Shown piece by piece: positions 24,756-51,222 of a stretch of DNA of 64,000 bases. The stretch comes from Bradyrhizobium sp. WSM1417 (GTDB lineage: Bacteria; Pseudomonadota; Alphaproteobacteria; Rhizobiales; Xanthobacteraceae). A program made the position numbers and the translations under genes. The notes beneath the pieces were generated by a model that made no database searches, had not been told where the DNA came from, and saw nothing but the letters and a program-made list of their open reading frames with translations. The stretch lies in assembly GCF_000515415.1 (NCBI RefSeq), contig NZ_KI911783.1, forward strand, positions 2,098,392 through 2,162,391, written 5' to 3'. Numbering within the stretch: position 1 is the first letter of the stretch; the number at the start of each line of letters is the position of its first letter.

Positions 24756-24998
24756 ATGACAAAGCTTAAACTTAGAGCGATCGAAGACGATAAGCCGATC
24801 AAGATTACGCATGAACTCCCGGCGAGCGTGCACAGGGATCTCGTGGCATATTCCGAAATCCTTGCACAAGAGAGCGGACAGCCGATCGGGGAGCCGGCGA
24901 AACTGATTGCACCCATGTTGGCACGGTTCATGGCAGCGGACAGAAGTTTTCGGAAGGCTCGACGTGCCCGTCAACATCCGAGCGGAGGCGAGGGATAG
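24756..24998 (+). CDS. DUF2274 protein downstream of trbI
   Basis: An 80-residue protein beginning TKLKLRAIEDDKPIKITHELPA and continuing VHRDLVAYSEILAQESGQP, then LIAPMLARFMAADRSFRK. This fits the small DUF2274 family commonly encoded just after trbI in rhizobial and other proteobacterial elements. The fold may be ribbon-helix-helix-like, but that is inference. It starts five bases after trbI and its end overlaps the convergent lysR gene by 28 bases, so the operon ends here. Confidence 0.85.
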   Translation: MTKLKLRAIEDDKPIKITHELPASVHRDLVAYSEILAQESGQPIGEPAKLIAPMLARFMAADRSFRKARRARQHPSGGEG

Positions 24999-25957: not shown

Positions 25958-25993
25958 GCGCAGCGATACCCCGATTGTACTTGCTTCCAGATC

Positions 25994-26626: not shown

Positions 26627-26679
26627 TCTTGCCTCCCTGATTATGGTGGCAATGAAGCAGAGAAGCCGAAGCAGCGCAT

Positions 26680-26697
26680 CCTGTGCAGTTGCACAGG
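26680..26697. promoter_or_regulatory. Lux/tra box upstream of traI
   Basis: CCTGTGCAGTTGCACAGG is an 18-bp sequence with perfect 8-bp arms around a GT centre. Size and symmetry fit LuxR-type operators such as tra boxes, and it stands 54 bases before the traI start. No second copy was seen before traG or trbB. Confidence 0.82.
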
Positions 26698-26717
26698 TGC
26701 TTATGAAGTGTCGTCGC

Positions 26718-30890: not shown

Positions 30891-31316
30891 GGCGAGACCA
30901 CATCAGCCATGCCCAGGCAGAGTTGGATTCTCATACCGGCCAACGTTTCTTGTCAGATTTCGTTTTTGCGCACCACGTTTCCGGGCGCTTATTGATTCCG
31001 CCAAGCTCCCGAGGACCAGATCGAGGTTCGGAATTAGGGCCCGGCGCGATGGAATTTGACTCTCGGCCTGTGGCCGGACATTCCACGCGCTCCCCGGACT
31101 GTGTCGGCATGGCAACTCCGTTCCCGCGGGCGAGGATGCGGCGACGTCCACTAATTCCCTTTTGGAAGTTGCTGCGTCGCGCTTCGGTGCGCAAGCCCCG
31201 CCTCGATTCTCTGATCGAGAACAGTGTAAAGGAGGAACCTTGCCTGTTTTCTGCATTTCGCGCGGGCGAGCGAGGAAAAACACACATGTGCCCGCTTTGT
31301 GAACCGTGCACTCGTA
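30891..31316. other. Intergenic region between lrp copy 1 and the MFS exporter
   Basis: About 425 bases. Open frames on both strands are short and overlap; none resembles a family I know. It should hold the MFS promoter. No terminator-like hairpin with a T-run was found after the lrp gene. Confidence 0.35.
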
Positions 31317-31793
31317 TCAAGCTTCAGGCGGAATCTCTATGGGGACGGCAAAACCTGCCTTTGCTCGATCCATTATGACTATGGTCTTAAATCCCTTGAT
31401 GTCCGGTTTGTCATAGAAGAAGCGTCGGGTAAACTGCTCATATTCTTCCATGCTGCGCGTAGTGATGTAGAGAACAAAGTCAGCGTCCCCTGTAACGTAG
31501 AATCCGCTGACCACTTCGGCTGACGATTTGATTGCCTTCTTGAAGTTATCGATGATTTCTAAGCGTTCCCGCTCGAGACTCACGAGAACGAGCATTTGAA
31601 CAGGACGTCCTATCGCTTTCGTCGACACGACGGATACATCCGCCTCGATGATGCCCTCCGAACGGAGCCTCTTTAGCCGTCGCTGACACGCGGTAGCAGA
31701 AAGCCCCGCCAATTCGCCAATCATCCCAGAAGTCAGCCTATTATTTTTTTGCACGATTTTCAGGATCTGGGCATCTATTCGATCGTACGGCAT
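31317..31793 (-). CDS. Lrp/AsnC-family regulator, copy 1
   Basis: A 158-residue Lrp/AsnC regulator: helix-turn-helix (RIDAQILKIVQKNNRLT, GLSATACQRRLKRLRSEGII) followed by the RAM effector domain (MLVLVSLERE, GFYVTGDADFVLYI). Lrp proteins sense amino acids and often control divergent genes; here the divergent gene is succinate-semialdehyde dehydrogenase. The protein differs by roughly 25 residues from copy 3 (counted by eye) and is likewise close to copy 2. A shared motif lies about 77 bases upstream of the start. Confidence 0.92.
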   Translation of the reverse strand: MPYDRIDAQILKIVQKNNRLTSGMIGELAGLSATACQRRLKRLRSEGIIEADVSVVSTKAIGRPVQMLVLVSLERERLEIIDNFKKAIKSSAEVVSGFYVTGDADFVLYITTRSMEEYEQFTRRFFYDKPDIKGFKTIVIMDRAKAGFAVPIEIPPEA

Positions 31794-31869
31794 AATTGGC
31801 TCCCAGCTTTCAGCTGCATTCCATCACAAACGCCTGCGTCTTGCAGAAAATCCTCGAAATGGCCGGAAA

Positions 31870-31906
31870 ATGCGACGCAAATATCTCTGCGACAACAGTA
31901 TTCTGC
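31870..31906. promoter_or_regulatory. Conserved motif upstream of lrp copy 1
   Basis: ATGCGACGCAAA, a variable middle and CAGTATTCTG match the sequences in the same place before lrp copies 2 and 3. Position in a divergent promoter suggests an Lrp binding site or a shared promoter. Confidence 0.55.
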
Positions 31907-31942
31907 ACCGGAGATTTCACCACGCGACCGCATGGAGTTCAA

Positions 31943-33457
31943 ATGGACTTTCAAGCTGCTCGTCACAAGGGTCCGGATTTGATCGGCATTGCTGCTAGGC
32001 ACCTGCAAAATCTCCGTCGTCGCGATTTTCTGGCGGGGAACGCGCTCATCGACGGCCGCTGGATTGCGAGCGATGAGAGGGATTCTGTGGTGGATCCCGC
32101 TACTGGCGAAGGGATCGCGGAGGTTGTTCGTTGCAACCCTACGCACATGGATCTGGCCATCGCTGCCGCCGAACGATCTTTCCAGACGTGGCGAGGACTA
32201 TTGCCGACCCAGCGCGGAGCGTTTCTTCGGTCTTGGGCGTCATTGATGAACGAGCACTCAGAAGAGCTTGCTATCCTGATTACGAGCGAGCAGGGAAAGC
32301 CACTCGATGAGGCGCGCTACGAGATTAAGTACAGTGCTGGCTTTCTTGAGTGGTTTGCGGCCGAGGGCGAGCGTGCATATGGCGAGACGATTCCCAGTCA
32401 TAAAGATGGAAGTCTGCTTCAAGTCAGAATGCAGCCCATCGGTGCCGCTGCGGCGATCACGCCATGGAATTTTCCGGTCGCTATGATCACCCGAAAGGCG
32501 GGTGCGGCTCTTGCGGCCGGTTGTCCGATAATTGTAAAGCCTGCTCCGGAGACGCCGCTTTCTGCTCTCGCCTTGGCTCGGTTGGCCGAAGAGGCTGGCG
32601 TGCCGCGCGGCGTACTCCAGGTGCTCGTTGGCGATCCAGTCGATCTCTCGACTCCGCTTTTGCGTGATCCAAGAATACGCGCTCTCTCGTTTACAGGGTC
32701 GACCGAAGTTGGACGTCTGCTTCTTGGGGGCAGCGCGCAGACGGTGAAAAAGGTCTCGCTCGAGCTCGGAGGGCATGCCCCGTTCCTCATCTTTGATGAC
32801 GTTGATCTTGACAAGGCCGTCAAAGGCGTGATGGCCGCAAAATTTGCGACTTCCGGTCAGGACTGCCTAGCGGCTAACCGCATCTATGTGCAAAGGGGTC
32901 TCTACGCTGCTTTTGTCGAGGCGCTTGGTAGGACGGTGGCGCAACTCAGGGTCGGCCATGGTCTGGAACCGGCCACTGAAATTGGTCCGATGACTAAGTT
33001 GTCGGTCGCCAACAAGTGTAGGGCACAAATCGACGATGCAGTGAAGAGGGGCGCGCGAGCTATTTCCGCAACCCGCGGAGTTGCTATGGGACCGAATTTC
33101 GTTCCGCCGACGTTGCTAAGTGATGTCACCGAAGACATGCTGATTGCACGTGAGGAAACATTTGGGCCTGTAGCTGCTGTGCTTCCGTTCGACTCTGAAG
33201 AAGAGGTCATCGCCCGAGCCAATGCCAGCGAAATGGGTTTGGCGGCGTACATTTACACCGATAGCTTGCGTCGCGCGCTCCGGCTTTCAGAGCAGATCGA
33301 GTACGGCATGGTCGGCGTCAATACGGCTTCATTCACAGGGCCTCCTATTCCGTTCGGAGGTTGGAAACAGTCTGGGCTCGGTCGCGAAGGGTCGCGGCAC
33401 GGATTGGCGGAGTATATGGAGCTGAAATATGTCTGCTTTGGCGATTTGGCGGCTTAG
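31943..33457 (+). CDS. gabD: Succinate-semialdehyde dehydrogenase family enzyme
   Basis: NAD(P)-dependent aldehyde dehydrogenase of 504 residues, closest in feel to GabD. Motifs: PIGAAAAITPWNFPVAMITRK (cofactor site), FTGSTEVGR, catalytic Glu in LELGGHAP, catalytic Cys in TSGQDCLAANR, and EETFGPVAAVLPF. The frame reads back to 31796, but ATG 31943 with a GGAG ribosome site gives a normal length with about 15 extra N-terminal residues. Likely reaction: succinate semialdehyde to succinate, the last step of GABA or putrescine breakdown; glutarate semialdehyde is an alternative. The aminotransferase starts 11 bases downstream, so they form an operon divergent from lrp copy 1. Confidence 0.87.
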   Translation: MDFQAARHKGPDLIGIAARHLQNLRRRDFLAGNALIDGRWIASDERDSVVDPATGEGIAEVVRCNPTHMDLAIAAAERSFQTWRGLLPTQRGAFLRSWASLMNEHSEELAILITSEQGKPLDEARYEIKYSAGFLEWFAAEGERAYGETIPSHKDGSLLQVRMQPIGAAAAITPWNFPVAMITRKAGAALAAGCPIIVKPAPETPLSALALARLAEEAGVPRGVLQVLVGDPVDLSTPLLRDPRIRALSFTGSTEVGRLLLGGSAQTVKKVSLELGGHAPFLIFDDVDLDKAVKGVMAAKFATSGQDCLAANRIYVQRGLYAAFVEALGRTVAQLRVGHGLEPATEIGPMTKLSVANKCRAQIDDAVKRGARAISATRGVAMGPNFVPPTLLSDVTEDMLIAREETFGPVAAVLPFDSEEEVIARANASEMGLAAYIYTDSLRRALRLSEQIEYGMVGVNTASFTGPPIPFGGWKQSGLGREGSRHGLAEYMELKYVCFGDLAA

Positions 33458-33468
33458 GGAGAAGCGAT

Positions 33469-34866
33469 ATGGTAGACATTAAGACCATCTCCGAACGAGA
33501 CCGGGCGAGTGTTTTGCATCCTTTCACGCAGCTGAAGGATTTCGCTAGCGGCAAAAGTGGCGATCCCACGATCGTTACAGGAGGGAAAGGTATTCGAATC
33601 GAAGACGCCCAGGGGCGCACCTACATAGACGGCTTTGCCGGCCTCTACTGTGTAAATATCGGCTACGGTCGCACCGAGGTGGCCGAGGCAATTGCGCGAC
33701 AGGCCTACAAGCTGGCATACTATCACACGTACGCGGCCCACACGACCGAAGAGCTCGCCATTTTGTCGGATCGTCTCGTGCGCATGGCACCTGGCAAGCC
33801 CAGCAAAGTGTTCTTCGGGTTATCCGGCTCGGATGCTAATGAAACCCAAGCCAAGCTCGTCTGGTACTACAACAATCTACGTGGTCAGCCCAAGAAGAAG
33901 AAGATCATCTCGCGCGAACGAGGCTATCATGGCTGTTCGGTAGTCTCCGGCTCGATGACCGGCATGTCGTTCTACCATGATCACATGGATCTCCCCTTTG
34001 CCGGGATTCTGCATACGGGCGCCCCGCACCATTATTGGGGCGCAGAGCCAGGTGAGACAGAGGACTCCTTTTCTCGGCGCCGTGCAGCGGAGCTTGAAGC
34101 ACTGATCCTGCGAGAGGGGCCGGAAACGATCGGCGCGTTCATTGCCGAGCCGGTGCTGGGTACGGGGGGCATCACACCGCCCCCGACCGGTTATTGGCGT
34201 GAAATTCAGGCCGTGCTCAGGCGCTACGACATTCTTCTCATCGCCGACGAGGTAATTTGTGGATTTGGCCGAACCGGCGCCGATTTCGGGAGCACGCTGT
34301 ACGAGATCGAGCCAGACTTGGTTACGGTCGCCAAAGGCCTGACTTCCGGCTATGTGCCGCTCTCGGGAGCCATCGTTGGCGAGAGAGTTTACGCTGTCAT
34401 GGAGGAAGCTGCGGAACGAGTAGGGGCATTCTCGCATGGGTACACCTATTCGGGCCATCCGATTGCGGCAGCAGCTGCCAATGCAGTGCTTGATATCGTC
34501 CAGAAGGAACAACTAAGCGAGCGCGCCAGGATCGTCGGCTCGCATTTCCAGAAGCGACTCAAGGAACGATTCGCTCAGCTCGAGATCGTCGGGGAAGTTC
34601 GTGGGGTGGGCTTACTTGGCGCCGTTGAGTTCGTTGCAGATCGCCAGACGAAAAGACGATTTGACCCGCACCACAAAGTAGGGGCACGCATTTCGAAAGC
34701 TGCCCGTGATCGGGGGCTAATTGCACGAGCGATGCCACACGGAGACATTCTTGGTTTTGCACCACCTCTAGTCGTATCCGAAGCTGAGATAGACGAGATT
34801 GTTGATCTAGCGTATCGAGCGACCAAGCAGGTTATGGACGAACTCGCCAAGGAATCTGCTGCTTGA
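33469..34866 (+). CDS. Class III omega-aminotransferase
   Basis: A 465-residue PLP-dependent aminotransferase. Landmarks: GKGIRIEDAQGRTYIDGFAG, FFGLSGSDANETQAKL (cofactor phosphate site), RERGYHGCS, the PLP Asp in LLIADEVICGFGRTG, and the Schiff-base Lys in VTVAKGLTSGYVPLSGAI. Relatives use pyruvate as acceptor for GABA, beta-alanine, putrescine or taurine; sequence alone does not decide. With GabD just upstream, GABA or a diamine is the likeliest donor: the aminotransferase gives a semialdehyde, GabD oxidises it, and alanine formed from pyruvate can be recycled by alanine dehydrogenase. ATG 33469 has a GGGAGAAG ribosome site. Confidence 0.88.
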   Translation: MVDIKTISERDRASVLHPFTQLKDFASGKSGDPTIVTGGKGIRIEDAQGRTYIDGFAGLYCVNIGYGRTEVAEAIARQAYKLAYYHTYAAHTTEELAILSDRLVRMAPGKPSKVFFGLSGSDANETQAKLVWYYNNLRGQPKKKKIISRERGYHGCSVVSGSMTGMSFYHDHMDLPFAGILHTGAPHHYWGAEPGETEDSFSRRRAAELEALILREGPETIGAFIAEPVLGTGGITPPPTGYWREIQAVLRRYDILLIADEVICGFGRTGADFGSTLYEIEPDLVTVAKGLTSGYVPLSGAIVGERVYAVMEEAAERVGAFSHGYTYSGHPIAAAAANAVLDIVQKEQLSERARIVGSHFQKRLKERFAQLEIVGEVRGVGLLGAVEFVADRQTKRRFDPHHKVGARISKAARDRGLIARAMPHGDILGFAPPLVVSEAEIDEIVDLAYRATKQVMDELAKESAA

Positions 34867-35115
34867 AAGACTCTCGTTACGTCGCGCCCGAGACGGCTAA
34901 CTCGTAAGCCATGTTCGACGGCCCCGCGACGCCCCAACTGACAGACTTTCGTTCAGGCCGATACTGCTCTCGAGGCCGGGATCTGTACGGCGCACAAAAG
35001 TGGGCCTAATGGCGTGCATTAGCTCCAGCGGGCCTGAAGTTGCATTGAATGTCGCTTGGAGAGACAAATCAGGCGCGTCCACAAGCTGCCCAATTTCCTC
35101 TCTCAGGAACTAACC

Positions 35116-36099
35116 ATGGATGCCATCAAGATCGATGGAAAAGCTATTGCTGAGGCTATTCGGGCTCGTGTCACGCAGAATGTGGCATTGCTGCAATCCA
35201 GGTGTGATGTCACCCCTGGTTTGGCTGTGGTGCTAGTCGGTACAGATCCGGCGAGTTCGATTTATGTAAAGACCAAGGCAAGACAGGCGCAGGCGGTAGG
35301 CTTCAACTCGCAACAACTGGTGCTGCCGAGTCATATTGGTGAAGACGAGCTGTTGAAATTAATCCAGGAGCTTAACGCCAACGATTCCATCGATGGCATA
35401 CTCGTTCAGCTTCCGCTCCCCGGCCATATCGACCACTGGCGCGTCCTAGAAACCATTGATCCGGCCAAGGATGTCGATGGCTTTCATCCGTATAACATTG
35501 GAAGACTATCAGCGGGTCGGCCCGCTCTCGCCCCTTGCACTCCGCTCGGTGTTGTTCATCTTATTAAGACCGTTGTCAGCGATTTAAATGGAATGGACGT
35601 TGTTGTCATCGGTCGCTCGAATGTCGTTGGAAAGCCCCTGGCGCTTTTGCTTGGCGATGCTGGATGCACAGTTACAGGTGCACAACTCCAGACGCGAAAC
35701 CTACCCGATCTCTGTCGAAGGGCCGACATTGTCGTCGCCGCCGCCGGGTGCGCGGGACTGGTTCGGGGCGATTGGCTTAAACCAGGCGCAATCGTCATTG
35801 ATGTAGGTATCAACCGTACAATCGATTCGAACGGCACTGCCAGACTTATTGGAGATGTCGCTTTCGTCGAAGCGAGTAAGCGCGCAAGCTACATAACCCC
35901 AGTGCCCGGGGGCGTTGGGCCTATGACTGTCGCCTACTTGCTCGCGAACACCATCACTGCGGCAGTTTCGCGCAGAGGACTGTCCCTGCTGACGAATGCT
36001 GGGGTTTTTACATTCGACCAGCCCGAGCTGGAGAATCGGCCGGCGACAATCAACCCGCACCGGGAATCACGTAGGGTGCTGGACATCACCGCCGGTTGA
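35116..36099 (+). CDS. folD: Methylene-THF dehydrogenase / methenyl-THF cyclohydrolase
   Basis: Bifunctional FolD converts 5,10-methylene-THF to 10-formyl-THF with NADP. Signatures: ASSIYVKTKARQAQAVG with the catalytic Lys, DGILVQLPLPGHID, VIGRSNVVGKPLALLL and YITPVPGGVGPMTVAYL. The 327-residue product is about 30 residues longer than usual; the extra part is a C-terminal tail after AAVSRRGLSLL. Start ATG 35116 fits the family. It is probably an extra copy beside the housekeeping folD. With the dimethylglycine dehydrogenase-like enzyme and PurU downstream it suggests a THF-dependent demethylation route. Confidence 0.91.
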   Translation: MDAIKIDGKAIAEAIRARVTQNVALLQSRCDVTPGLAVVLVGTDPASSIYVKTKARQAQAVGFNSQQLVLPSHIGEDELLKLIQELNANDSIDGILVQLPLPGHIDHWRVLETIDPAKDVDGFHPYNIGRLSAGRPALAPCTPLGVVHLIKTVVSDLNGMDVVVIGRSNVVGKPLALLLGDAGCTVTGAQLQTRNLPDLCRRADIVVAAAGCAGLVRGDWLKPGAIVIDVGINRTIDSNGTARLIGDVAFVEASKRASYITPVPGGVGPMTVAYLLANTITAAVSRRGLSLLTNAGVFTFDQPELENRPATINPHRESRRVLDITAG

Positions 36100-36624
36100 C
36101 GGCGCTTTAGGCAATCGCTTCTGAATGCGAAGGTTCATGAAGCGAAACCCCTTGTCACTGGCGCGGCACAGATGCTCTCGGTCGGCGATAAGGGCTAATG
36201 CCCAATCCGCGTTCCAATACGTTCGCCCTCAACTTCGCAGGAAAGCTTCATCTTTACGAGACGGAGCGCGCAATTTATGCGCAAAAGGCGCAATTTTGGT
36301 TATATTCGAGCGGATCGCCCGATACTATTTCCACGAAATAGATCAAAGCGGCGGAGTCGCGCGGATCTCGTTAGCGAAGCCGGGGGCGTTCGCCGCATGC
36401 TGCGGCGGCGAACTTCGCTCGAAATTGCTCCGGACTGAGGCGCAAGGAAATGAGCAAAGAGGCTTGGAGCGAGTTGCGTACAAACCGACCAGTGATCTTC
36501 TGCTCGAGAACGGCTCAATACTTAAATTGGAGGCCCATTCTCCACGGTATTGAAGGCCAACGTAAAGACTGAGGGACAACCACTCATCATCTGTTGAGGG
36601 GAACAAAGGAGAGGAGATCCGGCA
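36100..36624. other. Promoter region of the PotABCD-like operon
   Basis: About 525 bases. Open frames are short and not protein-like. It contains the palindrome at 36325-36341, which is repeated with its flank upstream of the dehydrogenase at 41246, and a GGAGAGGAG ribosome site just before the binding protein. No terminator-like hairpin follows folD. Confidence 0.45.
36317..36342. promoter_or_regulatory. CTATTTC/GAAATAG palindrome, copy 1
   Basis: GCCCGATACTATTT, then CCAC, then GAAATAGA. The core CTATTTC-CAC-GAAATAG is a perfect 7-bp inverted repeat. The 14-base left part and 8-base right part recur at 40965-40991. It lies about 280 bases before the binding-protein gene. Probable operator; the regulator is unknown. 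Confidence 0.62.
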
Positions 36625-37677
36625 ATGAAAAGACGAGCTTTTTTGAGATTTGCTACTACGGCTGCCGCTGGCGTGCTGGCCGCTCCCTACGTCCAGGCTC
36701 AGACGAAAAAATTCGCCAATGTTACGTTGCGCGTGAACGGGTTCGGCGGCGCGTTCGACGAAGCTCTTAGAAAAGGCGTGGCCGGGCCGCTAGAAGAAAA
36801 GTACGGGCTAAAAGTCCAATTTACCGCTGGCGCGACGCAAGCAGACCTCGTCAAACTGATCGCGAATAAGAGCAGCCCGCCGTACGACTTGTTTATGTGC
36901 GACAGCTCTTACGTCGTCGAGCTTCTTAAGGCCGACATCGTCGAAGAAATCAAGGTGTCAGACGTTCCCAACATCAAACGTGTTCTTCCGGGGTTTCGCG
37001 AATTCGGTGACTATGGTGTTCCGTTTAACGTTTCGTCCGTCGTACCGGTTTTCAATTCCAAATATATCAAGCGGCCTCTTACGTCATACTCAGATATCGC
37101 CCGGTCCGACCTGACCGGACGCGTGATCCTACCTGCCCCGGACCAAATCGCCAGCAGCTTATATCTTCTGGGCATGGCTGAGGAGAATGGAGGTTCGATT
37201 TCGGAAATGGAGCCTGCGATGAAGATACTAAGTGCCGCGAAGCCCAACATTGTTGCGCTAGCACAAACGAACGTCGCCGAACTGCAGATGTTTCAAAGCG
37301 AAGAGGGCTACGCCGGTATTTTTTGGGACGGCCGCGCTCACGAATTGCGCACCAAGGGCATTCCTATCGTCACGGTTTTTCCCTCCCAAGGCGTTTACTC
37401 CACAATCAGTTATATCAACGTCGTCAAGGGCATGAAGTATCCGGAAGCCGCGTACGCCTTTGCTGACCAGCTGCTCTCGGATCAAGGCATGCTCGCGATA
37501 CCTGAGGCGCTCCGGTATGGAGTAACGACGGATGTCAAACTGCCCGAAGATCTTCGCAGAGATCTCCTGTTCAATTCTCCTGAGCGCAATGCCCTGAGAA
37601 AGCAGATCGATTGGCAACAGCTCTGGGCAAACCGCAGCGGTTGGATCGAACGGGTCAATAAAACGATCCGGAACTAG
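36625..37677 (+). CDS. ABC transporter substrate-binding protein (PotD-like)
   Basis: A 350-residue periplasmic binding protein of the spermidine/putrescine-type group. The N-terminus MKRRAFLRFATTAAAGVLAA has twin arginines and a hydrophobic stretch, so Tat export is possible. The mature part has VNGFGGAFDEALRKGVAGP, PYDLFMCDSSYV and GVYSTISYINVVKGMKYPEAAYAFAD, typical of this fold. It is the first gene of a four-gene importer operon. The ligand is uncertain: a polyamine by family, or an N-methylated amine given the neighbouring genes. Confidence 0.86.
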   Translation: MKRRAFLRFATTAAAGVLAAPYVQAQTKKFANVTLRVNGFGGAFDEALRKGVAGPLEEKYGLKVQFTAGATQADLVKLIANKSSPPYDLFMCDSSYVVELLKADIVEEIKVSDVPNIKRVLPGFREFGDYGVPFNVSSVVPVFNSKYIKRPLTSYSDIARSDLTGRVILPAPDQIASSLYLLGMAEENGGSISEMEPAMKILSAAKPNIVALAQTNVAELQMFQSEEGYAGIFWDGRAHELRTKGIPIVTVFPSQGVYSTISYINVVKGMKYPEAAYAFADQLLSDQGMLAIPEALRYGVTTDVKLPEDLRRDLLFNSPERNALRKQIDWQQLWANRSGWIERVNKTIRN

Positions 37678-37768
37678 GAGTGTTTCATCTCGGTGTGGCG
37701 CGGATTCTCGGGAGTACGCAAACGCCGGGCCAACCTAGAACGCTCGATCGAAGTACGAAGGGTACGCC

Positions 37769-38635
37769 GTGAAGCAGTCATTGCTCAAGCGCCGAAGCCT
37801 AACTCTGGTGATCTTGCTGACCCCAATGGTCTTGCTTCTTGCAGGCTTTTTGGTGCTTCCAGTCCTAGGATTGCTGCGATCGAGCTTCTTGCCAAGTACC
37901 CATCTCCTAGATGGTACGGGTTTCAGCCTTAAGCACTACGTGCATTTCTTCTCAGATACTTACTACTCGTCTGTTCTGGTGGAGACGTTCGTCGACGGAC
38001 TTATCGTCAGTCTGGTCTGCTTGTTGATCGGCTTTCCCACCGGATATTCGCTCGCCCGTCTAACGTCTGCGGCGCGGAGGTGGCGGATGATTGTTGTGAT
38101 CCTCCCGTTGACGCTCAGTCTCGTCGTCGTTGTATTTGGCTGGCTGATCATTCTTGGTCGTAATGGTCTCCTCAATTCGCTATTCGTTTACCTTGGCATT
38201 TTCTCCTCGCCAAAAACGCTCCTCTTTAGTCGACCTGCGGTGCTGATCGTTTTGGTACAGCAGTTCCTCCCATTCATGATCTTGTCGGTCATGAGCGTAG
38301 TCACCCAAATACATCCAGTATTGGAGCAGGCAGCTTCGAATCTGCGTGCCAACCGCTTCGTGACTTTTCGAAAGGTCATTCTTCCACTTGCCGTGCCTGG
38401 AATTCTCATTGGCTTTAACATTGTATTCGTTCTCTCGATTTCGGCGTTCATAACGCCTCGTCTAATCGGCGGAGCACGCGTCGCGATGCTCGGAAGCCTG
38501 ATCTATGAGACCATTATGGCGCAACTGAATTGGCCGTTTGGTGCGGCAATGGCTTTCGTACTTTTCGTGAGCGGACTTGCCTTCACAGTGGCGCTCAATG
38601 CGTTGGTTGCTTCGCGTTTCACCGTCAGGGGATGA
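37769..38635 (+). CDS. ABC transporter permease (PotB-like)
   Basis: A 288-residue inner-membrane permease with about six helices. Typical PotB features are GFLVLPVLGLLRSSFLP, IGFPTGYSLARLTSAAR and the coupling EAA-type loop around LEQAASNLRANRFVTFRKVILPLAVPG. It starts at GTG 37769 after a 91-base gap from the binding protein. It would form a heterodimer with the next permease. Confidence 0.87.
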   Translation: MKQSLLKRRSLTLVILLTPMVLLLAGFLVLPVLGLLRSSFLPSTHLLDGTGFSLKHYVHFFSDTYYSSVLVETFVDGLIVSLVCLLIGFPTGYSLARLTSAARRWRMIVVILPLTLSLVVVVFGWLIILGRNGLLNSLFVYLGIFSSPKTLLFSRPAVLIVLVQQFLPFMILSVMSVVTQIHPVLEQAASNLRANRFVTFRKVILPLAVPGILIGFNIVFVLSISAFITPRLIGGARVAMLGSLIYETIMAQLNWPFGAAMAFVLFVSGLAFTVALNALVASRFTVRG

Positions 38636-38639
38636 ATCT

Positions 38640-39440
38640 ATGCGCGCTGATCTAATTGATCGTCTGATGGCCGTGTCCGGCACGCTTATTCGTGCGCTCG
38701 TTTACTTGATGCTTGCCTCGCCCGCGATCCTGGTGGTTCTATCATCGTTCACCAGCAGCGACACCATGAACTTCCCTCCCATGGGGTTTTCTCTACGATG
38801 GTATAAAGTCGCATTTGCAAACGAATTATTTATGGCCGCGCTCTGGACGAGTACCTACGTGGCTGTGCTAGTTGCCATCGTCGCGCTGTTGGTCGGCTTT
38901 GCCGGCGCATTCGCCATGAACCGGTTTTCTTTTCGAGGAAAGGCATTCTTGCAAGGCCTGGCGTTCTCGCCGCTGGTGGTCCCGGCTGTCGTGCTCGGAA
39001 TCGGATTGTTGCAGCTGTTCGCGTGGCTCGATCTTACACAGACAATGTATCCGTTACTTCTGGGACACCTAGTTCTTACGATACCATACGTCGTACGTAC
39101 GATCCTCGCGAGCCTTACTTTGCACGACCAGCAACTCGAACAGGCCGCAATGAACCTCCGAGCTACACCATTCCGAGTCATTCGACGCATTACGCTGCCG
39201 CTGATCATGCCCGGCTTACTCTCTGCTTCGATCTTTGCTTTCGTGACATCGTTTGGAAACGTGACCGTTTCCTCATTTCTCACCTACGGCGGCCACGTTA
39301 CTCTGCCGGTACAAATCTTTGCGTACGTCGATACCAGCTATGACCCACTAGTGGCGGCCGTCTCTAGCCTCATGATCGTCGTAACATTGGTCGTTATCCT
39401 AACAATTGAACGTCTGATTGGCGCGGAAAGACTTGCGTAG
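38640..39440 (+). CDS. ABC transporter permease (PotC-like)
   Basis: A 266-residue permease, second half of the membrane channel. Features: SSFTSSDTMNFPPMGFSLRWY, FAGAFAMNRFSFRGKA, SPLVVPAVVLGIGLLQLF and the EAA loop LEQAAMNLRATPFRVIRRITLPLIMPG. The frame is open from 38577, but ATG 38640, five bases after the potB-like stop, fits the family. Confidence 0.87.
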   Translation: MRADLIDRLMAVSGTLIRALVYLMLASPAILVVLSSFTSSDTMNFPPMGFSLRWYKVAFANELFMAALWTSTYVAVLVAIVALLVGFAGAFAMNRFSFRGKAFLQGLAFSPLVVPAVVLGIGLLQLFAWLDLTQTMYPLLLGHLVLTIPYVVRTILASLTLHDQQLEQAAMNLRATPFRVIRRITLPLIMPGLLSASIFAFVTSFGNVTVSSFLTYGGHVTLPVQIFAYVDTSYDPLVAAVSSLMIVVTLVVILTIERLIGAERLA

Positions 39441-39446
39441 ATAGGA

Positions 39447-40553
39447 GTGAATATGCTGGCTTTATCGAAAGAGCGTGACAACTTCGTGCCTGAAGCAGAT
39501 GATCTTGTCGTCGAATTGCGCTCTGTTTCCAAATACTACGGTGAAGTTGCTGCAGTTTCGAACACTTCGATTGGGGTCCGTCGTGGCGAACTACTTTGCC
39601 TGCTTGGACCGTCAGGCTGCGGCAAGACAACAACGCTGCGCATGGTGGCGGGATTTGTAGAACCGACGTCAGGTAGCATTACGATAAATGGCGTCGACAT
39701 GACGCGCCAGCCACCCTATCGGCGAGATACCGGAATGGTATTTCAGAGCTACGCCTTATTCCCGCATATGACGGTCGCGCAAAATATTGAATTTGGCCTC
39801 GAAAATCTCAAATGGCCGCGTGACAAGCGCAAAGCGCGGGTTGAGGAAATGCTCAGGCTGGTGGAGCTGCCTCATTTAGCTGACCGTCTTCCGGCGCAAC
39901 TTTCGGGCGGGCAGCAGCAACGGATCGCGCTTGCGCGTGCTCTTGCGATGCGACCAGCAGTACTGCTTCTTGATGAACCGTTCTCAAATCTCGATGCGCA
40001 GCTGCGCCTACGCATGCGAGAAGAGTTGCGGGAAGTAGTGCGGAGCGTCAACGTCACGACCCTGTTTGTGACGCATGATCAGGAAGAAGCACTGGCTATG
40101 TCGGACCGCATCGTCGTCATGAATGCCGGTCAGGTTGAGCAGATAGGCACGCCTGGCGAGATTTACGAGTCGCCGGAAACGCCTTTCGTTGCCAAATTTA
40201 TTGGCTGGTGCTCTCTTTTGAAGGGAGCCGTAGGGGCTGATGGCAGTTTCACGTCGACGGCTGGATTGCGCCTCGGTGGAAATTGGAGTGCTGGTTCTGC
40301 TACAGCGGTGATCCGGCCGGAGCACGTCCGGCTATCGACCGATGGCGGTAGCGGACCATCCTATCAAGGGCGCGTCTTGCAGGCGCACTACTACGGTGGG
40401 GCGACGCGAATCGTGCTTGACCTTAATGGAGAGCAGCTGACGATGCAGGAGCGCTTTCCGTTTGGGCAACATCCGAAAACCGGCGATCGTCTCAACGTCG
40501 CAATAAGCACGGACGACATTCGCGTTATTCCCGCGGGAGAAGATCGTCGATAG
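39447..40553 (+). CDS. ABC transporter ATPase (PotA-like)
   Basis: A 368-residue ATPase energising the importer. Walker A GPSGCGKTT, Q-loop MVFQSYALFPHM, signature LSGGQQQRIALARALAM, Walker B LLLDEPFSNLD and switch FVTHDQEEALAM are intact. The C-terminal ~120 residues form a TOBE-type regulatory domain (AVIRPEHVRLS). It begins at GTG 39447 or ATG 39453, following the permease closely. Last gene of the operon. Confidence 0.9.
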   Translation: MNMLALSKERDNFVPEADDLVVELRSVSKYYGEVAAVSNTSIGVRRGELLCLLGPSGCGKTTTLRMVAGFVEPTSGSITINGVDMTRQPPYRRDTGMVFQSYALFPHMTVAQNIEFGLENLKWPRDKRKARVEEMLRLVELPHLADRLPAQLSGGQQQRIALARALAMRPAVLLLDEPFSNLDAQLRLRMREELREVVRSVNVTTLFVTHDQEEALAMSDRIVVMNAGQVEQIGTPGEIYESPETPFVAKFIGWCSLLKGAVGADGSFTSTAGLRLGGNWSAGSATAVIRPEHVRLSTDGGSGPSYQGRVLQAHYYGGATRIVLDLNGEQLTMQERFPFGQHPKTGDRLNVAISTDDIRVIPAGEDRR

Positions 40554-41245
40554 GCAATCATCGCACGAGGTATACCGTGGTCTTTGTTGCTGCGTGCAAG
40601 CAAGGGCCCTGTTGTGCCATTCAGAGGGACAGATATGCGGTGGGGGACGGGTAGTCTGAACAACTCGCCTCCGGTTCATCGGCGGCACGGCCCCATGTTC
40701 GCCTAGACGCCCGTAAACTCGTGCGTGAAGCGAACGCCGCGCTGCACAATCTCATCGCCGTTTTGCACTGGCCGGCCAGGTTCCGTTCTCATCAGGATGA
40801 TCTCTCACAGCGAAACTGTGGCAGCCAACATGGCATGCTACACGCGCCGGATCTGATGTGCTCAGGTAAGGTCAGGTCGACAGAATAAAATCGCCGGACC
40901 TTGCGGAGAGTGTGCAGTATTTCTGCTTTGAGAACGTCATTTCAGTTTAATTCAACTCCATCAGCCCGATACTATTTGCGTGAGAAATAGAACGCTCCGG
41001 CTGACCAAGTCCGAATTACAACGCGCGGGAGGGGGACCGAATTTGCAAAGCTCAAGATAGCCGACCGTTATCGCGCATAGCTGCACGCTCGGCATCAGCC
41101 ATCAGACACAAGATACAGCGACGTTTGATTTCGCGCATGTGCAGATCGGCTCCCACAGCCCAAGCCTCCAAACATCCCGCGCTATTCACCTGCTGATCCC
41201 GCGCAAGGCGCGGGCAGCCAGCGGTCATTTCTCTGAGTCGTTCAA
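40554..41245. other. Promoter region of the dehydrogenase gene
   Basis: About 690 bases without a credible gene. The second copy of the GCCCGATACTATTT motif is here. A weak -24/-12-like sequence near 40834 (TGGCATGCTACACGC) has correct spacing but a poor -12 box, so I do not call it. Confidence 0.4.
40965..40991. promoter_or_regulatory. CTATTT/AAATAG palindrome, copy 2
   Basis: GCCCGATACTATTT, then GCGTGA, then GAAATAGA. The flank and half-sites match copy 1, with a spacer two bases longer. It lies about 255 bases before the dehydrogenase start, much as copy 1 lies about 280 bases before the importer operon, suggesting shared control. Confidence 0.6.
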
Positions 41246-43753
41246 ATGCAAAGCAAACTGCCTTCCCAAGCTGAATACGTCATCGTCGGTGGTGGCATCA
41301 TTGGCCTATCCATCGCCTATCATCTCACCCGACTTGGACATCGCGACGTTTTGCTGCTCGAACGAGACCAGCTCACCTGCGGTACTACGTGGCACGCGGC
41401 GGGGCTCGTTACCCAGCTGCGCGCCAGCGAAAACATGGCGAAGCTGGCGCAGTATACCGCAGGCCTATTCCGAGAGCTTGAGCAGGTGACTGGTCAGCAC
41501 ACCGGGTTTCGGCAATGTGGGTCGATTACTGTCGCCGCGACGCCTGCGCGTTTCGAGGAGCTGAGGCGAGGCGCGTCGATGGGGCGCTCCTTTGGTCTCG
41601 ATGTTGAGATCATCGACGCTGCGGAGGCTAGGCGACGGGTACCCTTGCTCGACGTAACCGACGTGCTTGGCGCGGCATGGATTGCCTCCGATGGAAAGAC
41701 GAATCCGGTGGACACGGCGCGCGCGTTCGCCACTGGCGCGCGGCAGGGAGGAGCAAAAGTCCTGGAACGCACGCCGGTGACCCGTATCCTGGTCGAGAAG
41801 GGGCGAATCGCCGGCGTCGAAACTGCCGAGGGCGTCGTGCGTACCGAAAAGGTGGTTATCTGCGCAGGGATGTGGACCCGGACGCTGGCTGCTGACCTTA
41901 ATTGGACCGTGCCGCTTCATGCGGCAGAACATTTCTACGTGGTGACCGAGGCCATTTCAGGCTTGCTGCCTGATACTCCCACAGTGCGCGATCTTGATGC
42001 GTGCTTCTATGCCAAGGAGGATGCAGGAAAATTGCTGGTGGGCTTCTTCGAACCGAAGGGCAAGCCGTGGGGCATGGAAGGCATTCCCTCAAAGTTCAGT
42101 TTTGAGTCTCTGCCTGACGATCTCGATCACATGGAGCCTCACCTCATCAATGCAATGCGGCGTATGCCGGCGCTTGCGGATGTGGGACTGCAACTGAACT
42201 TCAACGGACCGGAGAGTTTCACGCCCGACAATCGATTTTTGCTAGGGCCTGCGCCCGATATCGCCGGCCTCTATGTTGCTTCGGGCTTCAACTCGTGTGG
42301 CATCGAATCCTCCGGCGGGGCGGGCAAAGTGATGGCCGACTGGATGTCGACCGGTATGCCGGCGGCTGACTATTGGGAAATGGACGTCCGACGCGCCATG
42401 CCCTTCCAGCGCAACCGTCGATATTTGCGCGACCGAACAGGCGAAGCTGTTGGACTCCTTTACGCCCTTCACTGGCCTCACAAATCCCCCATGACAGCTC
42501 GCAACGTGCGAGTGTCGCCGCTGCATGATCGACTAGCTGCCGCAGGTGCGATCTTCGGCGAGGCCGCGGGGTGGGAGCGAGCGCAGTGGTTTGGTACTCC
42601 CGGGATGGAGGCGAGCGGCCACGGCACATTTGCTCGCGATGATTGGTTCAAGGCAAGCGGGGCGGAACATGAGGCGGCTCGTTCCGGAGTTGCACTCTTC
42701 GATCAGACGTCATTCGCACATCTCCTTGTGCAGGGCCGCGATGCACCTACGTTTCTTCAACGCCTTTCGACTAACAACATTGATGCTCCGGTGGGGCGTG
42801 TCGTCTATACGCCGTGGCTCAATGACCGCGGCGGCATGGAGTCAGACGTCACGATCGCACGAACCGGCGAGAACGAATTCCTCATCGTAACTGCAGCCGT
42901 TCAGCGCATTCGAGATCTTGCGTGGTTGCGGACCCATGCCAAAGATGCAGGCCACGTGTTCGTCACCGACGTGTCATCGGGCTACACATGTCTGTCGGTC
43001 ATGGGGCCGCGTTCACGAGATCTGCTCATGCGCGTCAGCCCAGCTGATTTTTCAGACGCTGCGTTTCCGTTCGCCACGGCCCGAGAAATCGAAATTGGTT
43101 ATGGCATGGCGCTCGCGTTCCGCATGACCTTCGTGGGCGAACTCGGGTGGGAGCTCCATATTCCTGCCGAGCAGGCGTTGGGTGTCTACGATGCACTTAT
43201 CGTTGCTGGGCGCGATCTCAATCTGCAACACGCGGGCTACGTGGCACTAAATACGCTGCGCCTCGAGGCGGGTTACCGCGACTGGGGGGCAGACGTAAGT
43301 GATGAAGACACACCGATCGAAGCAGGACTGGGCTTCACCATCGCTTGGGACAAGGGGGAGGATTTCATCGGCCGCGCGGCTCTCGAGTCTCAGCGCGGCC
43401 AAATCCCGCACCGACGCCTTGTCCAGCTAGCTGCGCCCCGCGCGGTGCCGCTCATGTTTGGAACAGAGCCCGTTTGGCGCAATGGTTCTCTCGTTGGTTA
43501 CCTGCGGTCAGCGGGATTCGGCCATACTCTTGGCTGCGGTATCGGCATGGGATATTTGCATTGCGCGAGTGGGGTAAGTGCCAAATGGCTGTCTGACGGA
43601 GACTTCGAAATAGAGATCGCCGGCCAAAGGCACGCTGCCATCGCATCGCTTCGTCCTTTCTACGATTCGAATCGCACTCGAGTGAAAGGCGAATTGCGAA
43701 AGGCCGAAGATTTAATCGCCCCGGAGCTGCTCATGGCACGCTCTAAAAAATGA
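41246..43753 (+). CDS. Dimethylglycine/sarcosine dehydrogenase-like flavoprotein
   Basis: An 835-residue two-domain enzyme. The N-terminal half is an FAD oxidoreductase (DAO fold): dinucleotide motif [17 protein letters not shown] near residue 12, then [11 protein letters not shown], whose His is the covalent FAD anchor in dimethylglycine and sarcosine dehydrogenases. The C-terminal half is a GcvT-like THF-binding domain ([55 protein letters not shown]). Such enzymes demethylate N-methyl amino acids and pass formaldehyde to THF as methylene-THF. Candidate substrates are dimethylglycine, sarcosine or a plant betaine derivative. purU follows 46 bases on. Confidence 0.87.
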
Positions 43754-43799
43754 CTTTCAGCTCTGTGTTTTACGAGGGCCGCCGCTGGCGGCGACTGCC

Positions 43800-44663
43800 A
43801 TGTCCGACCGTTCCATGATTCTTACCTTGTCTTGCCCTGATCGCCCGGGAATCGTTTCGGCAGTCTCGCGGATCCTATTCGAAGCTGGTTGCAACATCAT
43901 CGATGCTCAGCAATTTGATGATAACGAGACCGGTCGATTCTTCATGCGCGTTGTCTTCAATCGCCTCGAGCATGCGAACTCGGAAGCCGACATCGCTGCC
44001 TCAATCGACGAACTCGCTGGGCGTCTTTCCATGACATTTAATCTGCGGCAGAGCTCCGTAAAGAAACGTGTGATGCTGCTCGTCTCTAAAGTCGACCATT
44101 GTCTGGCCGATTTACTTTACCGTTGGCGAATCGGTGAACTGCCGATGGAACTAACCGCGATCGTTTCCAATCATGACCGCGAGCACTTAGCTTCCACAGA
44201 TCTAGGCCAGCTGCCCTTCTATCATTTCCCGGTTAGCAAGCAGACCAAAATGGAGCAGGAGGCGCGGATTTGGGGACTCGTGCAGGAGACCAACACAGAG
44301 CTTGTTGTCCTCGCCCGTTACATGCAGATTCTGTCAGACGGCTTTTCGGCCAAGCTGTCGGGTCGCTGCATAAACATCCACCACTCCTTTTTGCCAGGCT
44401 TCAAAGGCGCCAAGCCGTATCACCAAGCCTACGAACGAGGAGTCAAATTGATCGGAGCGACAGCGCACTATGTGACTTCTGATCTCGACGAGGGACCGAT
44501 CATCGAGCAGGATGTCGAACGGATTTCGCATCGCGATACGCCAGAAGATCTCGTCCGGAAGGGCCGTGATATTGAACGGCGCGTTCTCGCCCGCGCGGTG
44601 AGGCATCACCTCGAGGATCGCGTGTTGATGAACGGAAAGAAAACTGTCGTATTCACCGGCTGA
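43800..44663 (+). CDS. purU: Formyltetrahydrofolate deformylase
   Basis: A 287-residue PurU: an N-terminal ACT domain ([33 protein letters not shown]) and a C-terminal formyltransferase-like hydrolase with [29 protein letters not shown] and the catalytic region [18 protein letters not shown]. It splits 10-formyl-THF into formate and THF. Downstream of a methylene-THF-producing flavoprotein, and with an island folD nearby, it would regenerate THF during demethylation. It is probably co-transcribed with the dehydrogenase. Confidence 0.93.
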
Positions 44664-45174
44664 CCGGGACGTCTGATGGTCTGATGCAACGCACACTGGC
44701 GTCTACTCAGCTGTCACCGACTGAAAATCCTTTGGAGCTGCCGCAGACCCTCGCTCCAGTACTTTTGTCATTCCTGCAGACTGAATGAGTGACGAAGCGC
44801 CATATCCCTTGCGAGCACCAAAGGAAAAGTTCCTGATCCTCGTTGCAAGCGGCACGGCAAGCGAAAGTGACAACTTTTGTGTTTCGGCATGGAATAAGGG
44901 CTCTGACTCATATGTGGAACGGCCCGGGCTGCAAGATCTTTTTCTGGTAGAACAAGGGATGACGGTGCGGTCATATGTTCGGCCTGTGAGTGCGGCGCCT
45001 GGCCGCTGGCCACGATGATATCCGCGGAAGCAATCGCCCAATCAATTTCTCGCGCGCGAAGCGCAGTGAGTCAGGCGGTCTGATTGCTACCGGGCATGAC
45101 GTCATTCGAGGTTCATCCAGATTTGCACCTTGCCTCCTCGGCGGATTTCTTCTTCCGCCGGAGAGCTCTTGAGA
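44664..45174. other. Region between purU and the IS110 element
   Basis: About 510 bases. A plus frame at 44785-45018 opens MSDEAPYPLRAPKEKFLILV and runs 77 codons with fairly natural composition, but I recognise no family and it may be the stub of a gene cut by the insertion that follows. No other gene is visible. Confidence 0.35.
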
Positions 45175-46206
45175 TTAGGATTTCAGCATTGCGGCCGGCG
45201 CCTGATAGATGCCTCCTCTGACCAGCAAGGCCCAGATCGTGCGCGCAATCTTATTAGCGAGCGCGACAGATACGACCTTGACCGGCCGTCTTTGCAGCAT
45301 GGTCCGAATCCAGAGCGGGACTTTCAAGCCTCGTTTAGCAAGCTTGATGATAGAGGTCGCACCAACGATCAAGAGCGTCCGTAGTTGCCGATTTTCACGC
45401 TTTGATATCGCGCCGAGCCTTTCTTTCCCGCCGCTCGATTGTGCCCTCGGTGTTAGCCCCGTCCAAGCGGCAAAATCTCGTGCAGTCGCAAAATCGCGAG
45501 CATCCAAGACCGATGTTCGAACGGTAGCGGCGATGAGAGGACCGACACCCGGAATGCTCATCAGACGCCTTGCATCGGGGTCCTGTCTGACGGCAACCAA
45601 AATCTCTCTGTCGAGCTTCTCTATGCGGGTTGTAAGCAGCTCAATCTGTTCGGCAAATAGGATCAGGGCAATGCGGGCGGCGCCGGGGATCCTGTTGTCT
45701 TTTTCGTCCCGGAGAAGCACCAGGAGTTTTGCGATGCTTGCCATGCCCGTGCCAGCGATAATGCCCAATTCGGCCACATGAGCCCGCAGAGCATTTGCAG
45801 TCTGGCTGCGCTGCCTCATCAGCATCTCTCGCGTTCGCAAAATCATGCTGGCTGCTTGTTGTTCGGCAGTCTTCACCGGTACGAACCGCATTGTCGGGCG
45901 GGTGACCGCCTCACAAATGGCTTCAGCATCCGCCACGTCGGTCTTGTTACGTTTGACGTAAGGCTTCACGTAGGCTGGCGGCATCATGCGGACAGAGTGG
46001 CCCAGCGCCGCTATCTCGCGCGCCCAGTGATGGGCACTCGCGCAGGCCTCCATACCTACGAAGCAAGCTGGAAGGCTCCGAAAGAAGGGCAGAACCTGCG
46101 ATCGCCGCAATGTGCGACGAACCAAGACTTTCCCGTCTTCGGCGGTGCCGTGAACTCGAAAGATCGACTTGGCCAAATCCAAACCCACTGTGATAATTTT
46201 CTCCAT
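45175..46206 (-). mobile_element. IS110-family transposase
   Basis: A 343-residue IS110-type DEDD transposase. The N-terminal RuvC-like domain shows TVGLDLAKSIFRVHG with the first Asp, MEACASAHHW and KNKTD-like KRNKTDVADAEAICEA. The C-terminal transposase_20 region has LMSIPGVGPLIAATVRTSV, FAAWTGLTPRAQSSGGKERLG and the conserved Ser. The frame reads on to 46293, but ATG 46206 is the family start. It appears intact. IS110 elements lack typical terminal repeats, so I do not set outer limits; they probably extend some tens of bases past the gene. Confidence 0.9.
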
Positions 46207-46344
46207 GGAACGGTCCTTCCTTTGTGGCGCCTCTCTACGCGACCACGTTAGGCACTTTTGATGCCGGTTCGAAGGGCCGGTCCACACCATCACTTTTAAT
46301 GAAGTTCAAGCGCCAGCTCGCGTTGGTTTCACAAAGGAATCAAT

Positions 46345-47574
46345 ATGATGCAGCGAGCCCTACGTCCGTCGGTCTTGGTCCCTCGCGGATTTGACGTGGA
46401 AAGCGCCTTTTGTAGTGGCGCTACAACCGTGATCACCGTACATCCCACGAGCAGGACGAGTCTCTGTCCCGGTTGCGGGACCAGTTCAGAGAGGATTCAT
46501 AGCCGATATCAGCGGCGCCTCACCGATCTGCCGCTGGCGGGGCGGCAGGTTCGCCTGGTGGTCGTGGCGCGCTGCTTCCGCTGCGTTACTGTTTTGTGCG
46601 ATCGGCGCATTTTCACCGAGCGCTTCGATGACGGAGCTCTGGCACCGTGGGCGCGGCGAACGACCCGGCTCGATCTAATCGTCCATCACCTTGGCCTTGC
46701 TTTGGGGGGCCGCCCGGCGGCGAGTTTTGCCCGTCGACTTATGCTGCCCGTAAGCAACGACACATTGCTTCGGGTGGTTAGAAGGCGCGGGTGTCCGCCC
46801 TTTGCTCCGCCGAGCGTGATCGGAATCGACGATTGGGCCTGGCGGCGCAATCAGAGGTACGGAACGATCATCTGCGACCTCGAGCGGCGACGACCAATCA
46901 CTCTCTTACCCGACAGAGAGCCAGCCACTGCGCAGGTTTGGCTCGCGGGCCAGCCACAGATCGCTGTGGTCTCGCGCGACCGCGGCTGTGGTTACGCCCT
47001 TGCTGCGGCCAAGGCACTCCCGCACGCCACCCAGGTCGCCGACCGTTGGCACCTCATGGAGAACGCCAGCCACGACTTCCTGGATGCGGTTCGCAAATCC
47101 ATGCGCCAGGTCTGCATCGCGGTCGGCTCCGCCACTATAATCCCAGCTTGTTGACCGCCGCCGAGCGCATTCAATATGAGGGCTATCTTCGGCGAGAAGA
47201 CACCAACGCGGCAATCCTCAAACAGGCTGAGACGGGCATCTCCATAAAGGAGATCGTACGGCTCACCGGCCATAGCCGGGGCCTCATCCGCAGGGTATTG
47301 CGAGGTCAGCGATCCGACGTGTTCAGGGTCCGCGAGAGCTCGCTCGAGCACTACCTGCCGTGGCTCGACGCTCAGTGGGCTGCTGGCCATTGAAATGGCG
47401 CCGACCTTTGGCGTTGCCTCAAGGCGCAGGGATTTAGAGGCTCGCTGCGGGTCGTTACCGAATGGACGACACGCCGTCGACGTGCCGAAATGCCCGATGC
47501 TGAGAGCCTGCAGCGCATACCGTCCGCGAGAACGATCGCCCGCCTGATGACCAATGGCCGCGATACGCTATCAA
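46345..47574 (+). pseudogene. ISL3-family transposase, 5' part (interrupted)
   Basis: N-terminal and central part of an ISL3 transposase: zinc-finger region SLCPGCGTSSERIHSRYQRR, then LPLAGRQVRLVV, FTERF, and the catalytic-domain start PSVIGIDDWAWRRNQRYGTII. A frameshift near 47145 moves the frame; it continues LTAAERIQYEGYLRREDTN to WLDAQWAAGH, where an in-frame TGA at 47391 breaks it. It then reads on to ARLMTNGRDTLS, where the IS21-family element enters. The remaining C-terminus is at 50201-50532. Dead by at least two lesions besides the insertion. Confidence 0.85.
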
Positions 47575-47696
47575 ATGCGGATTCCGGGGATTGCGGCCAG
47601 AGATTCCGATTGAACGCGACCATGCATTCCGATCGAAGGCGGCCACCTGTTCCGACGAAGGCGGCCGGGGTGTCGTTGCCGGCATGAGGAGTTGGG

Positions 47697-48458: not shown

Positions 48459-48477
48459 AATGCCTCCTTGTTGCTGG

Positions 48478-51149: not shown

Positions 51150-51222
51150 GTCGGCTCAGGCCTCAGGTGAATTTCACCGCGGTATGTCTGCATGATGCAG
51201 GAAATGGTCCAAACGGCAAGAA

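Follow-up and report, generated by a model that had tools for sequence, protein, structure and literature searches.

A repeated promoter-end module precedes predicted osmolyte uptake and breakdown genes in nifH-carrying Bradyrhizobium and points to a candidate Lrp/AsnC regulator

Results

Two copies of one site precede an importer operon and a dehydrogenase gene

In this study, we analysed a stretch of 64,000 nucleotides from Bradyrhizobium sp. WSM1417 (contig NZ_KI911783.1, positions 2,098,392 to 2,162,391 of the forward strand), here called the window, in which a short repeated site precedes two neighbouring transcription units on the plus strand. One is an importer operon (36625-40553) for a solute-binding protein, two permeases and an ATPase, taken from its open reading frames (ORFs), with Pfam SBP_bac_8 in the first gene, ABC_tran in the last and the permeases assigned by reading. 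The other is a gene for an FAD/folate demethylating dehydrogenase that resembles dimethylglycine dehydrogenase (41246-43753; DAO, FAO_M, GCV_T and GCV_T_C domains). Site 1, GCCCGATACTATTT-N4-GAAATAGA, is located at 36317-36342 (+) and site 2, GCCCGATACTATTT-N6-GAAATAGA, at 40964-40991 (+), and each consists of a -10-like core and a right arm. A preliminary description of the window had given the same coordinates except for a start of 40965 for site 2, one base too late. The distances to the start codons, 282 and 254 bases, agree with its estimate of about 255-285.

The pattern CTATTTN{2,8}AAATAG had exactly two matches in the window, as the preliminary description had judged by eye, and none in 100 dinucleotide shuffles, and the 14-mer matched nowhere else with fewer than three mismatches. 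In the whole genome of 8.05 Mb the palindrome was found three times. The third copy, at 2501473, has no GATA flank, and the flanked form, GATACTATTTN{2,8}AAATAG, occurred in this genome only at sites 1 and 2; it had no match in 40 relatives, 24 of them from the same genus. The pair of sites is far beyond chance. The surroundings of the two copies, which had been called unlike, share a box (GCGCAATTTATGC and GCAGTATTTCTGC) that stands 53 and 54 bases upstream of GATACT, with a diverged second element in between. The palindrome spacer is 4 bases long in one copy and 6 in the other, and this difference of two bases speaks against a rigid dimer site.

The site is the promoter end of a module of about 80 bp

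Each copy of the site marks the promoter end of a module about 80 bp long, in which a 13-bp palindrome, GCAGAATTTCTGC (consensus GCAGAATTTC[T/G]GC), is followed about 31 bp on by a GAAATTC site and then by the -10-like CCGATANTATTT. At site 1, the upstream box GCGCGCAATTTATGCGC (36266-36282, +) is the first operator site of the importer leader and part of the second-best match of the two-box scan described below, which also located the second element GGTTATATTCGAG (36298-36310, +). At site 2, the box GCAGTATTTCTGC (40914-40926, +) was found with both the model R1 (below) and the two-box scan, and the second element GTTTAATTCAAC (40945-40956, +) with the orthologue footprint and the two-box scan.

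Orthologues of the importer binding protein were present in 25 of 265 genomes of the genus at E<=1e-60, and dehydrogenase orthologues in 25 of 265 at E<=1e-300, 18 of the latter being 79-100% identical. Alignment of the regions upstream of these 18 revealed one conserved block, CGCAGAATTTCTGC, then AAATTC, then GATANTATTT, whose start precedes the ATG by about 280-480 bases; the alignment is poor for two of these orthologues, G070 and G260. The same layout was found at site 1 and ahead of the importer in B. iriomotense and strain Ghvi. The element is kept before the dehydrogenase, and also before the importer in 9 of 19 genomes read. The palindrome singled out as a selected motif is real and rare, but the -10-like GATANTATTT lies within it, and several dehydrogenase orthologues that keep the upstream box (G018, G210, G002 and G236) have no right arm. 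The G210 orthologue (L065, G210:C1:6961258-6963759) has one internal TGA stop.

We next examined the spacing in 56 non-redundant leaders. The A/T autocorrelation peaked at a lag of 31 bp (0.52), and palindrome centres were found at +8 (mean pairing 0.77, z 21) and +39 (0.46, z 9.5); a smaller maximum stood at +34 (z 7.6) and a weak one at +69 (z 3.1). The distance from site to site is 31 bp in 40 of the 56, 30 bp in 13 and 29 bp in 3. TANTAT begins at about +58, with all five fixed letters in 21 leaders and at least four in 47, and no -35 element was recognised by eye upstream of it. If TANTAT is taken as the -10 element, the two sites would lie near -63 and -32, the layout of an activator. 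The leader of the first cleavage-enzyme operon (below) ends 35 bases before an ATG, which fits this placement. A search for known riboswitches or other structured RNA leaders gave no Rfam match at gathering score in 31000-44800. The leaders of importers of the window type and of dehydrogenases mostly lie 250-560 bases before the gene (36342-36625 and 40991-41246 in the window; L042, L043 and L044), and for genes of PotA-type importers and of cleavage enzymes the distance from leader to first possible start is 20-66 bases in 12 of 17 cases.

At least six leaders occur in one region of the genome

A sequence-only model of 81 positions, R1, was built from 16 dehydrogenase leaders, leaving out G128 as a near-duplicate and G070 as poorly aligned; its E-values are rough because the calibration was shortened. 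R1 picked up importer leaders on which it had not been trained, those of B. iriomotense (44.3 bits), strain Ghvi (43.5) and site 1 (17.8), the score of site 1 being helped by the presence of site 2 in the training set. In its own genome, R1 gave six matches with E<0.02, namely site 2 (2.9e-14), 2163733 (3.4e-12), 2184928 (1.4e-8), 2262854 (0.004), 2271141 (0.013) and site 1 (0.016), all at 2,134,663-2,271,184 and so within 137 kb; the seventh match had an E-value of 1.4. With 150 of 1144 candidates scored here, and 17 per genome in the genus search, further leaders may exist. A two-box scan, built from 54 leaders with window sequences excluded and four taken from elsewhere in this genome, was run on both window strands and ranked site 2 first (36.0), then site 1 (18.4) and the 5' region of an Lrp gene (Lrp1, 15.7), with the next match at 10.2. 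The preliminary description had joined the importer and the dehydrogenase in one regulon. They do share a control element that recurs before their orthologues and is not scattered at random, and the regulon is larger than was claimed, with at least six leaders in the genome.

The four leaders outside the window lie before two cleavage-enzyme operons, a PotA-type importer and the gene of a 368-aa protein. The first operon encodes a beta-keto acid cleavage enzyme and a carnitine 3-dehydrogenase/thioesterase fusion (585 bits, cut-off 592), and the second a cleavage enzyme and a carnitine-dehydrogenase-like protein (395 bits, cut-off 592). The ABC importer of PotA type matched TIGR01187 above cut-off. 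The 368-aa protein had no Pfam or NCBIfam match when tested for L123; its family stands behind a leader in six loci (L123:4961-6064, L144, L173, L186, L187 and L192) and is perhaps part of the pathway.

Targets were read for 68 of 71 matches, a duplicate (L139) and the two copies of a site at a contig end having been dropped. They comprise six leaders of this genome and 62 of relatives, and four of the 68 are dehydrogenase leaders of the training set. The 40 stretches used for this reading, like a further 20 longer ones, were hand-picked from the listed matches instead of being sampled at random, and most are complete contigs. An ORF of at least 110 aa, with mechanically assigned start, lies downstream of 63 of the 68. 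The targets were PotA-type importers (14), a cleavage enzyme or carnitine dehydrogenase (10), importers of the window type (7), the 368-aa family (6), another binding protein (4), and two each of dehydrogenases, Rieske oxygenases, M24 proteins, M20 proteins and, by reading only, aminotransferase-like and transposase-like proteins, along with 10 single cases, folD among them. The closest model for the Rieske protein is GbcA (391 bits, cut-off 670) and that for the M24 protein the ectoine hydrolase DoeA (278 bits, cut-off 613), and the hydroxyectoine dehydratase EutB, above cut-off, stands behind one leader of another genome (L168). These results suggest that the targets have in common the import and degradation of carnitine, betaine and dimethylglycine, with ectoines as well in other strains, although the exact substrates can be named only as probable. 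Four leaders (L165, L166, L167 and L169) are near-identical (32-33 bits), and L165-L167 are followed by ORFs that by reading resemble transposase genes. The four leaders come from G005, G061 and G051, which have no close Lrp protein (see below), and G089, which has one, and are possibly orphan or decaying copies.

The module is confined to nifH-carrying genomes

At E<=0.01, 72 of 265 Bradyrhizobium genomes had a leader match, about 2.7 being expected falsely if the rough E-values hold. The stricter filters of the genus search recovered just four of the six leaders of this genome, so leaders were missed in that search. All 72 genomes belong to the 158 that carry nifH, and none to the 107 that do not. 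No match at E<=0.001 was found in 335 genomes of other genera of the order (from a sample of 347 that held 12 Bradyrhizobium). In complete genomes for which both positions are listed, most listed leaders lie, by eye, about 20-600 kb from nifH (for example in G276, G085, G009 and G231), while the leader at G230:1393203 is megabases away. These results suggest that the module is a trait of the symbiosis genome, and we infer from the relatives that the leader cluster of this genome is on a symbiosis island. B. cytisi CTAW11 has a near-identical locus. We found no earlier description of the motif or the regulon in the open-licence literature.

Lrp/AsnC genes lie close to the leaders

The regulator had been described as unknown; it probably is not, since the window holds three Lrp/AsnC genes, two of which have a similar, weaker operator in their 5' regions. 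These genes, all on the minus strand, encode regulator 1 (31317-31793), regulator 2 (50673-51149) and regulator 3 (53674-54150). The proteins are 80-89% identical, regulator 2 sharing 80% with regulator 1 and 89% with regulator 3, and all three have an N-terminal HTH_AsnC-type domain and the C-terminal AsnC/RAM ligand domain AsnC_trans_reg above the Pfam cut-offs. The nearest solved structures of protein 1 belong to the AsnC/Lrp family. The close Lrp family was found in 111 of 265 genomes, that is, in 66 of the 72 with a leader versus 45 of the 193 others. Within nifH-carrying genomes the proportions were 66 of 72 with a leader and 41 of 86 without, uncorrected for kinship.

In 28 of the 72 leader genomes, those with both positions listed (that of regulator 1 was computed from the window), the median distance between an Lrp gene and its nearest leader was 6.0 kb, with 19 of the 28 within 10 kb and the farthest at 112 kb. 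We also compared 26 leader neighbourhoods of up to 20 kb, 20 of them new and six from earlier regions, several coming from one genome. Lrp was the sole regulator recognised among the clusters present in at least four neighbourhoods, and it occurred in 9 of the 26.

The 5' region of regulator 1 has an operator-like two-box element at 31812-31857 (-), the third-best two-box match and a putative site of autoregulation. Regulator 2 has a weaker one at 51165-51210 (-), which at 7.1 bits is not among the window matches above 9. Of 32 Lrp 5' regions, 26 have their best two-box match at -55 to -65 relative to the ATG, phased as in the leaders. Eighteen scored above 3.6, the best of 90 control 250-mers, and 17 of these have the element at -55 to -65. 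These results suggest that an Lrp protein may bind both its own gene, for repression, and the leaders, for activation.

Neighbouring genes

A gene similar to formyltetrahydrofolate deformylase (purU; ACT and formyl transferase domains) lies at 43800-44663 (+), downstream of the dehydrogenase gene. Transposase-like ORFs, by reading, occupy 45175-50031 between purU and regulator 2, while in B. cytisi (L006) an Lrp gene lies about 340 bases after purU. The match to an FAD oxidoreductase in B. cytisi (L006:19010-20397) is split in two pieces. Beside regulator 1, at 31943-34866 (+, starts assumed), are an ssd-like semialdehyde dehydrogenase gene, with SSADH as its best NCBIfam model, below cut-off, and an atf-like gene for a class III aminotransferase, with a subfamily model above cut-off. 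At 24971-27440, LysR and LuxR genes enclose a gene that by reading resembles an acyl-homoserine-lactone synthase gene, and a conjugation-like gene block, also by reading, adjoins this region.

Discussion

We consider it likely that the two sites are the promoter ends of an activator-dependent module and belong to a regulon for osmolyte uptake and breakdown run by an Lrp/AsnC protein. On comparative sequence evidence the regulon itself is strongly supported, and the assignment of Lrp/AsnC as its regulator moderately supported. In the proposed mechanism, two phased sites, the first palindrome and the GAAATTC site three helical turns downstream, would be bound by a regulator like those encoded at 31317-31793, 50673-51149 and 53674-54150, with dimers of a larger oligomer sitting at about -63 and -32. 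Transcription would start just downstream of the -10-like GATANTAT, and the importer and catabolic genes would be switched on when a pathway intermediate, the putative effector, is present. For its own gene the Lrp protein would be a repressor, acting at a similar pair of sites downstream of the presumed promoter and ahead of the start codon. The available excerpt of PMC2995911 describes Lrp sites as clustered elements centred on AT, with two or three helical turns from one to the next, and one Lrp-family protein as co-crystallised on a 13-bp palindrome. The module fits the family pattern, drawn from PMC2995911 and PMC10201364, of AT-centred semi-palindromes of about 13-15 bp that are clustered at a spacing of two or three turns. 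A bolder extension, which we offer tentatively and rate below even chances, is that a duplicated AsnC branch found largely in nodulating Bradyrhizobium is the master switch for the use of host-derived quaternary amines and ectoines (carnitine, betaine, dimethylglycine) in nodules and has spread by planting ready-made copies of the three-turn-phased module before unrelated operons.

Several observations weigh against the proposed Lrp/AsnC-run regulon. The importer leader is present in only 9 of the 19 genomes whose importer regions were read (weakest E 0.02) and in none of the other 10, and seven further dehydrogenases (54-56% identical) have no such upstream layout. Six leader genomes have no close Lrp (G005, G021, G051, G061, G084 and G129), and 41 nifH-carrying genomes with Lrp have no detected leader. 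The Lrp 5' regions score from -11 to 18 (mean 4 bits) versus 38-49 for eight leaders, the best of 640 shuffles reached 15.3, and 6 of the 32 regions have no element at -55 to -65. As Lrp orthologues are not independent, the p-values overstate the case. In 30 Lrp loci R1 matched no Lrp 5' region; its one match is a leader divergent from the Lrp gene (L091). Regulator 3 has a degenerate first box in its 5' region (54167-54207, -; no two-box match, L085), keeping only the second box-like GCGAAATAGACCT, and it may be autoregulated in another way than regulators 1 and 2. The queries for the neighbourhoods were Lrp, LysR, LuxR and autoinducer synthase, with annotation for clusters in at least four regions. 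Substrates are assigned from enzyme families, and the cleavage enzymes score far below every specific NCBIfam cut-off.

The module could instead be the operator of another regulator, for example a LysR-type protein bound near -65 and -35, which we regard as unlikely. LysR promoters have a dyad near -63, a second site near -32 and no -35 element, a layout that resembles the module, and a LysR gene is present in the window (24971-25957). However, LysR genes are rare near leaders: LysR-like ORFs were found, with one LysR query, in 1 of the 26 neighbourhoods versus 9 for Lrp, and of 59 LysR matches in the genome (150 of 182 candidates scored) a single one, some 10 kb to the left of site 1, falls within 2.10-2.30 Mb. 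The box of LysR-type proteins is T-N11-A, whereas GCAGAATTTCTGC has G and C at +/-6. The 30 AraC matches all fall outside 2.10-2.30 Mb, so that no AraC gene is near the regulon. These tests by regulator type covered Lrp, LysR, LuxR and AraC.

A reading in line with the preliminary description takes CTATTT-N-AAATAG itself as the operator of a dedicated dimeric regulator. Both copies have a perfect palindrome, 13 of 47 leaders have GAAA after the -10 region (2.9 expected from shuffles), and the arms pair slightly better than by chance (3.5 versus 3.1 of 7, z 3.2). Yet the varying spacer, the four orthologues that keep the upstream box without the right arm, and palindromy that peaks at the upstream box and at +39 but only weakly at +69 make this reading improbable; the perfect palindrome is not supported as the main element, though the right arm is conserved in part. 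We give still less credence to non-regulatory boundary repeats left behind when, by recombination or duplication, an importer cassette came to lie between folD and the dehydrogenase gene. This would suit strain Ghvi, in which folD is directly upstream of the dehydrogenase gene and the importer is elsewhere, while here the repeats flank the importer. However, the leader precedes importer and dehydrogenase genes even where these are apart, as well as many other genes, and beyond the module the two copies become less alike.

Among known systems, the Lrp/AsnC regulator proposed here shares its family with the AsnC protein (DoeX) of the ectoine/hydroxyectoine clusters of Sinorhizobium meliloti, Ruegeria pomeroyi and Halomonas elongata. 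In the portion of PMC5924519 at hand, asnC adjoins ssd and an aminotransferase gene, in S. meliloti also an oxidoreductase gene, and the Ruegeria AsnC is an activator whose effector metabolite is unclear and whose role is still to be illuminated. To judge from that portion, the window is arranged similarly: the gene of regulator 1 is beside a semialdehyde dehydrogenase and an aminotransferase gene (31317-34866), as in asnC-ssd-atf, and that of regulator 2 is divergent from an FAD oxidoreductase gene (51292). Leaders elsewhere also precede EutB, in one case, and ectoine-hydrolase-like genes, below cut-off. Unlike AsnC/DoeX, the regulator occurs in three copies, and its targets here would be carnitine-, betaine- or dimethylglycine-like, with dispersed leaders instead of one operon. 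Since this genome (G000) has no EutB above cut-off, we do not call the candidate an ectoine regulator. It is best read as a putative branch of the ectoine AsnC family recruited for other osmolytes, a likeness drawn from gene arrangement.

The metabolic theme is that of CdhR and GbdR of Pseudomonas aeruginosa. According to the passages available from PMC5806209, these run carnitine and glycine betaine catabolism in Pseudomonas and are AraC-family proteins with direct-repeat half-sites, whereas no AraC gene is near the present regulon. Self-repression together with activation of an adjacent aminotransferase gene is known from BarR and further archaeal regulators of Lrp type, and a three-turn site spacing is known in the Lrp family, as far as the extracts of PMC2995911 and PMC10201364 go. 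The mechanism proposed here would resemble that of BarR in combining self-repression, if it occurs, with activation, and its three-turn spacing is one known in the family; it differs in that BarR is archaeal and has another motif, while the regulator here would serve many operons. For a regulon of AsnC type, the module provides an operator, its phasing, the position of the promoter and a list of targets, all specific enough for direct testing, and it suggests that a gene block in nitrogen-fixing Bradyrhizobium forms one pathway for plant-derived osmolytes.

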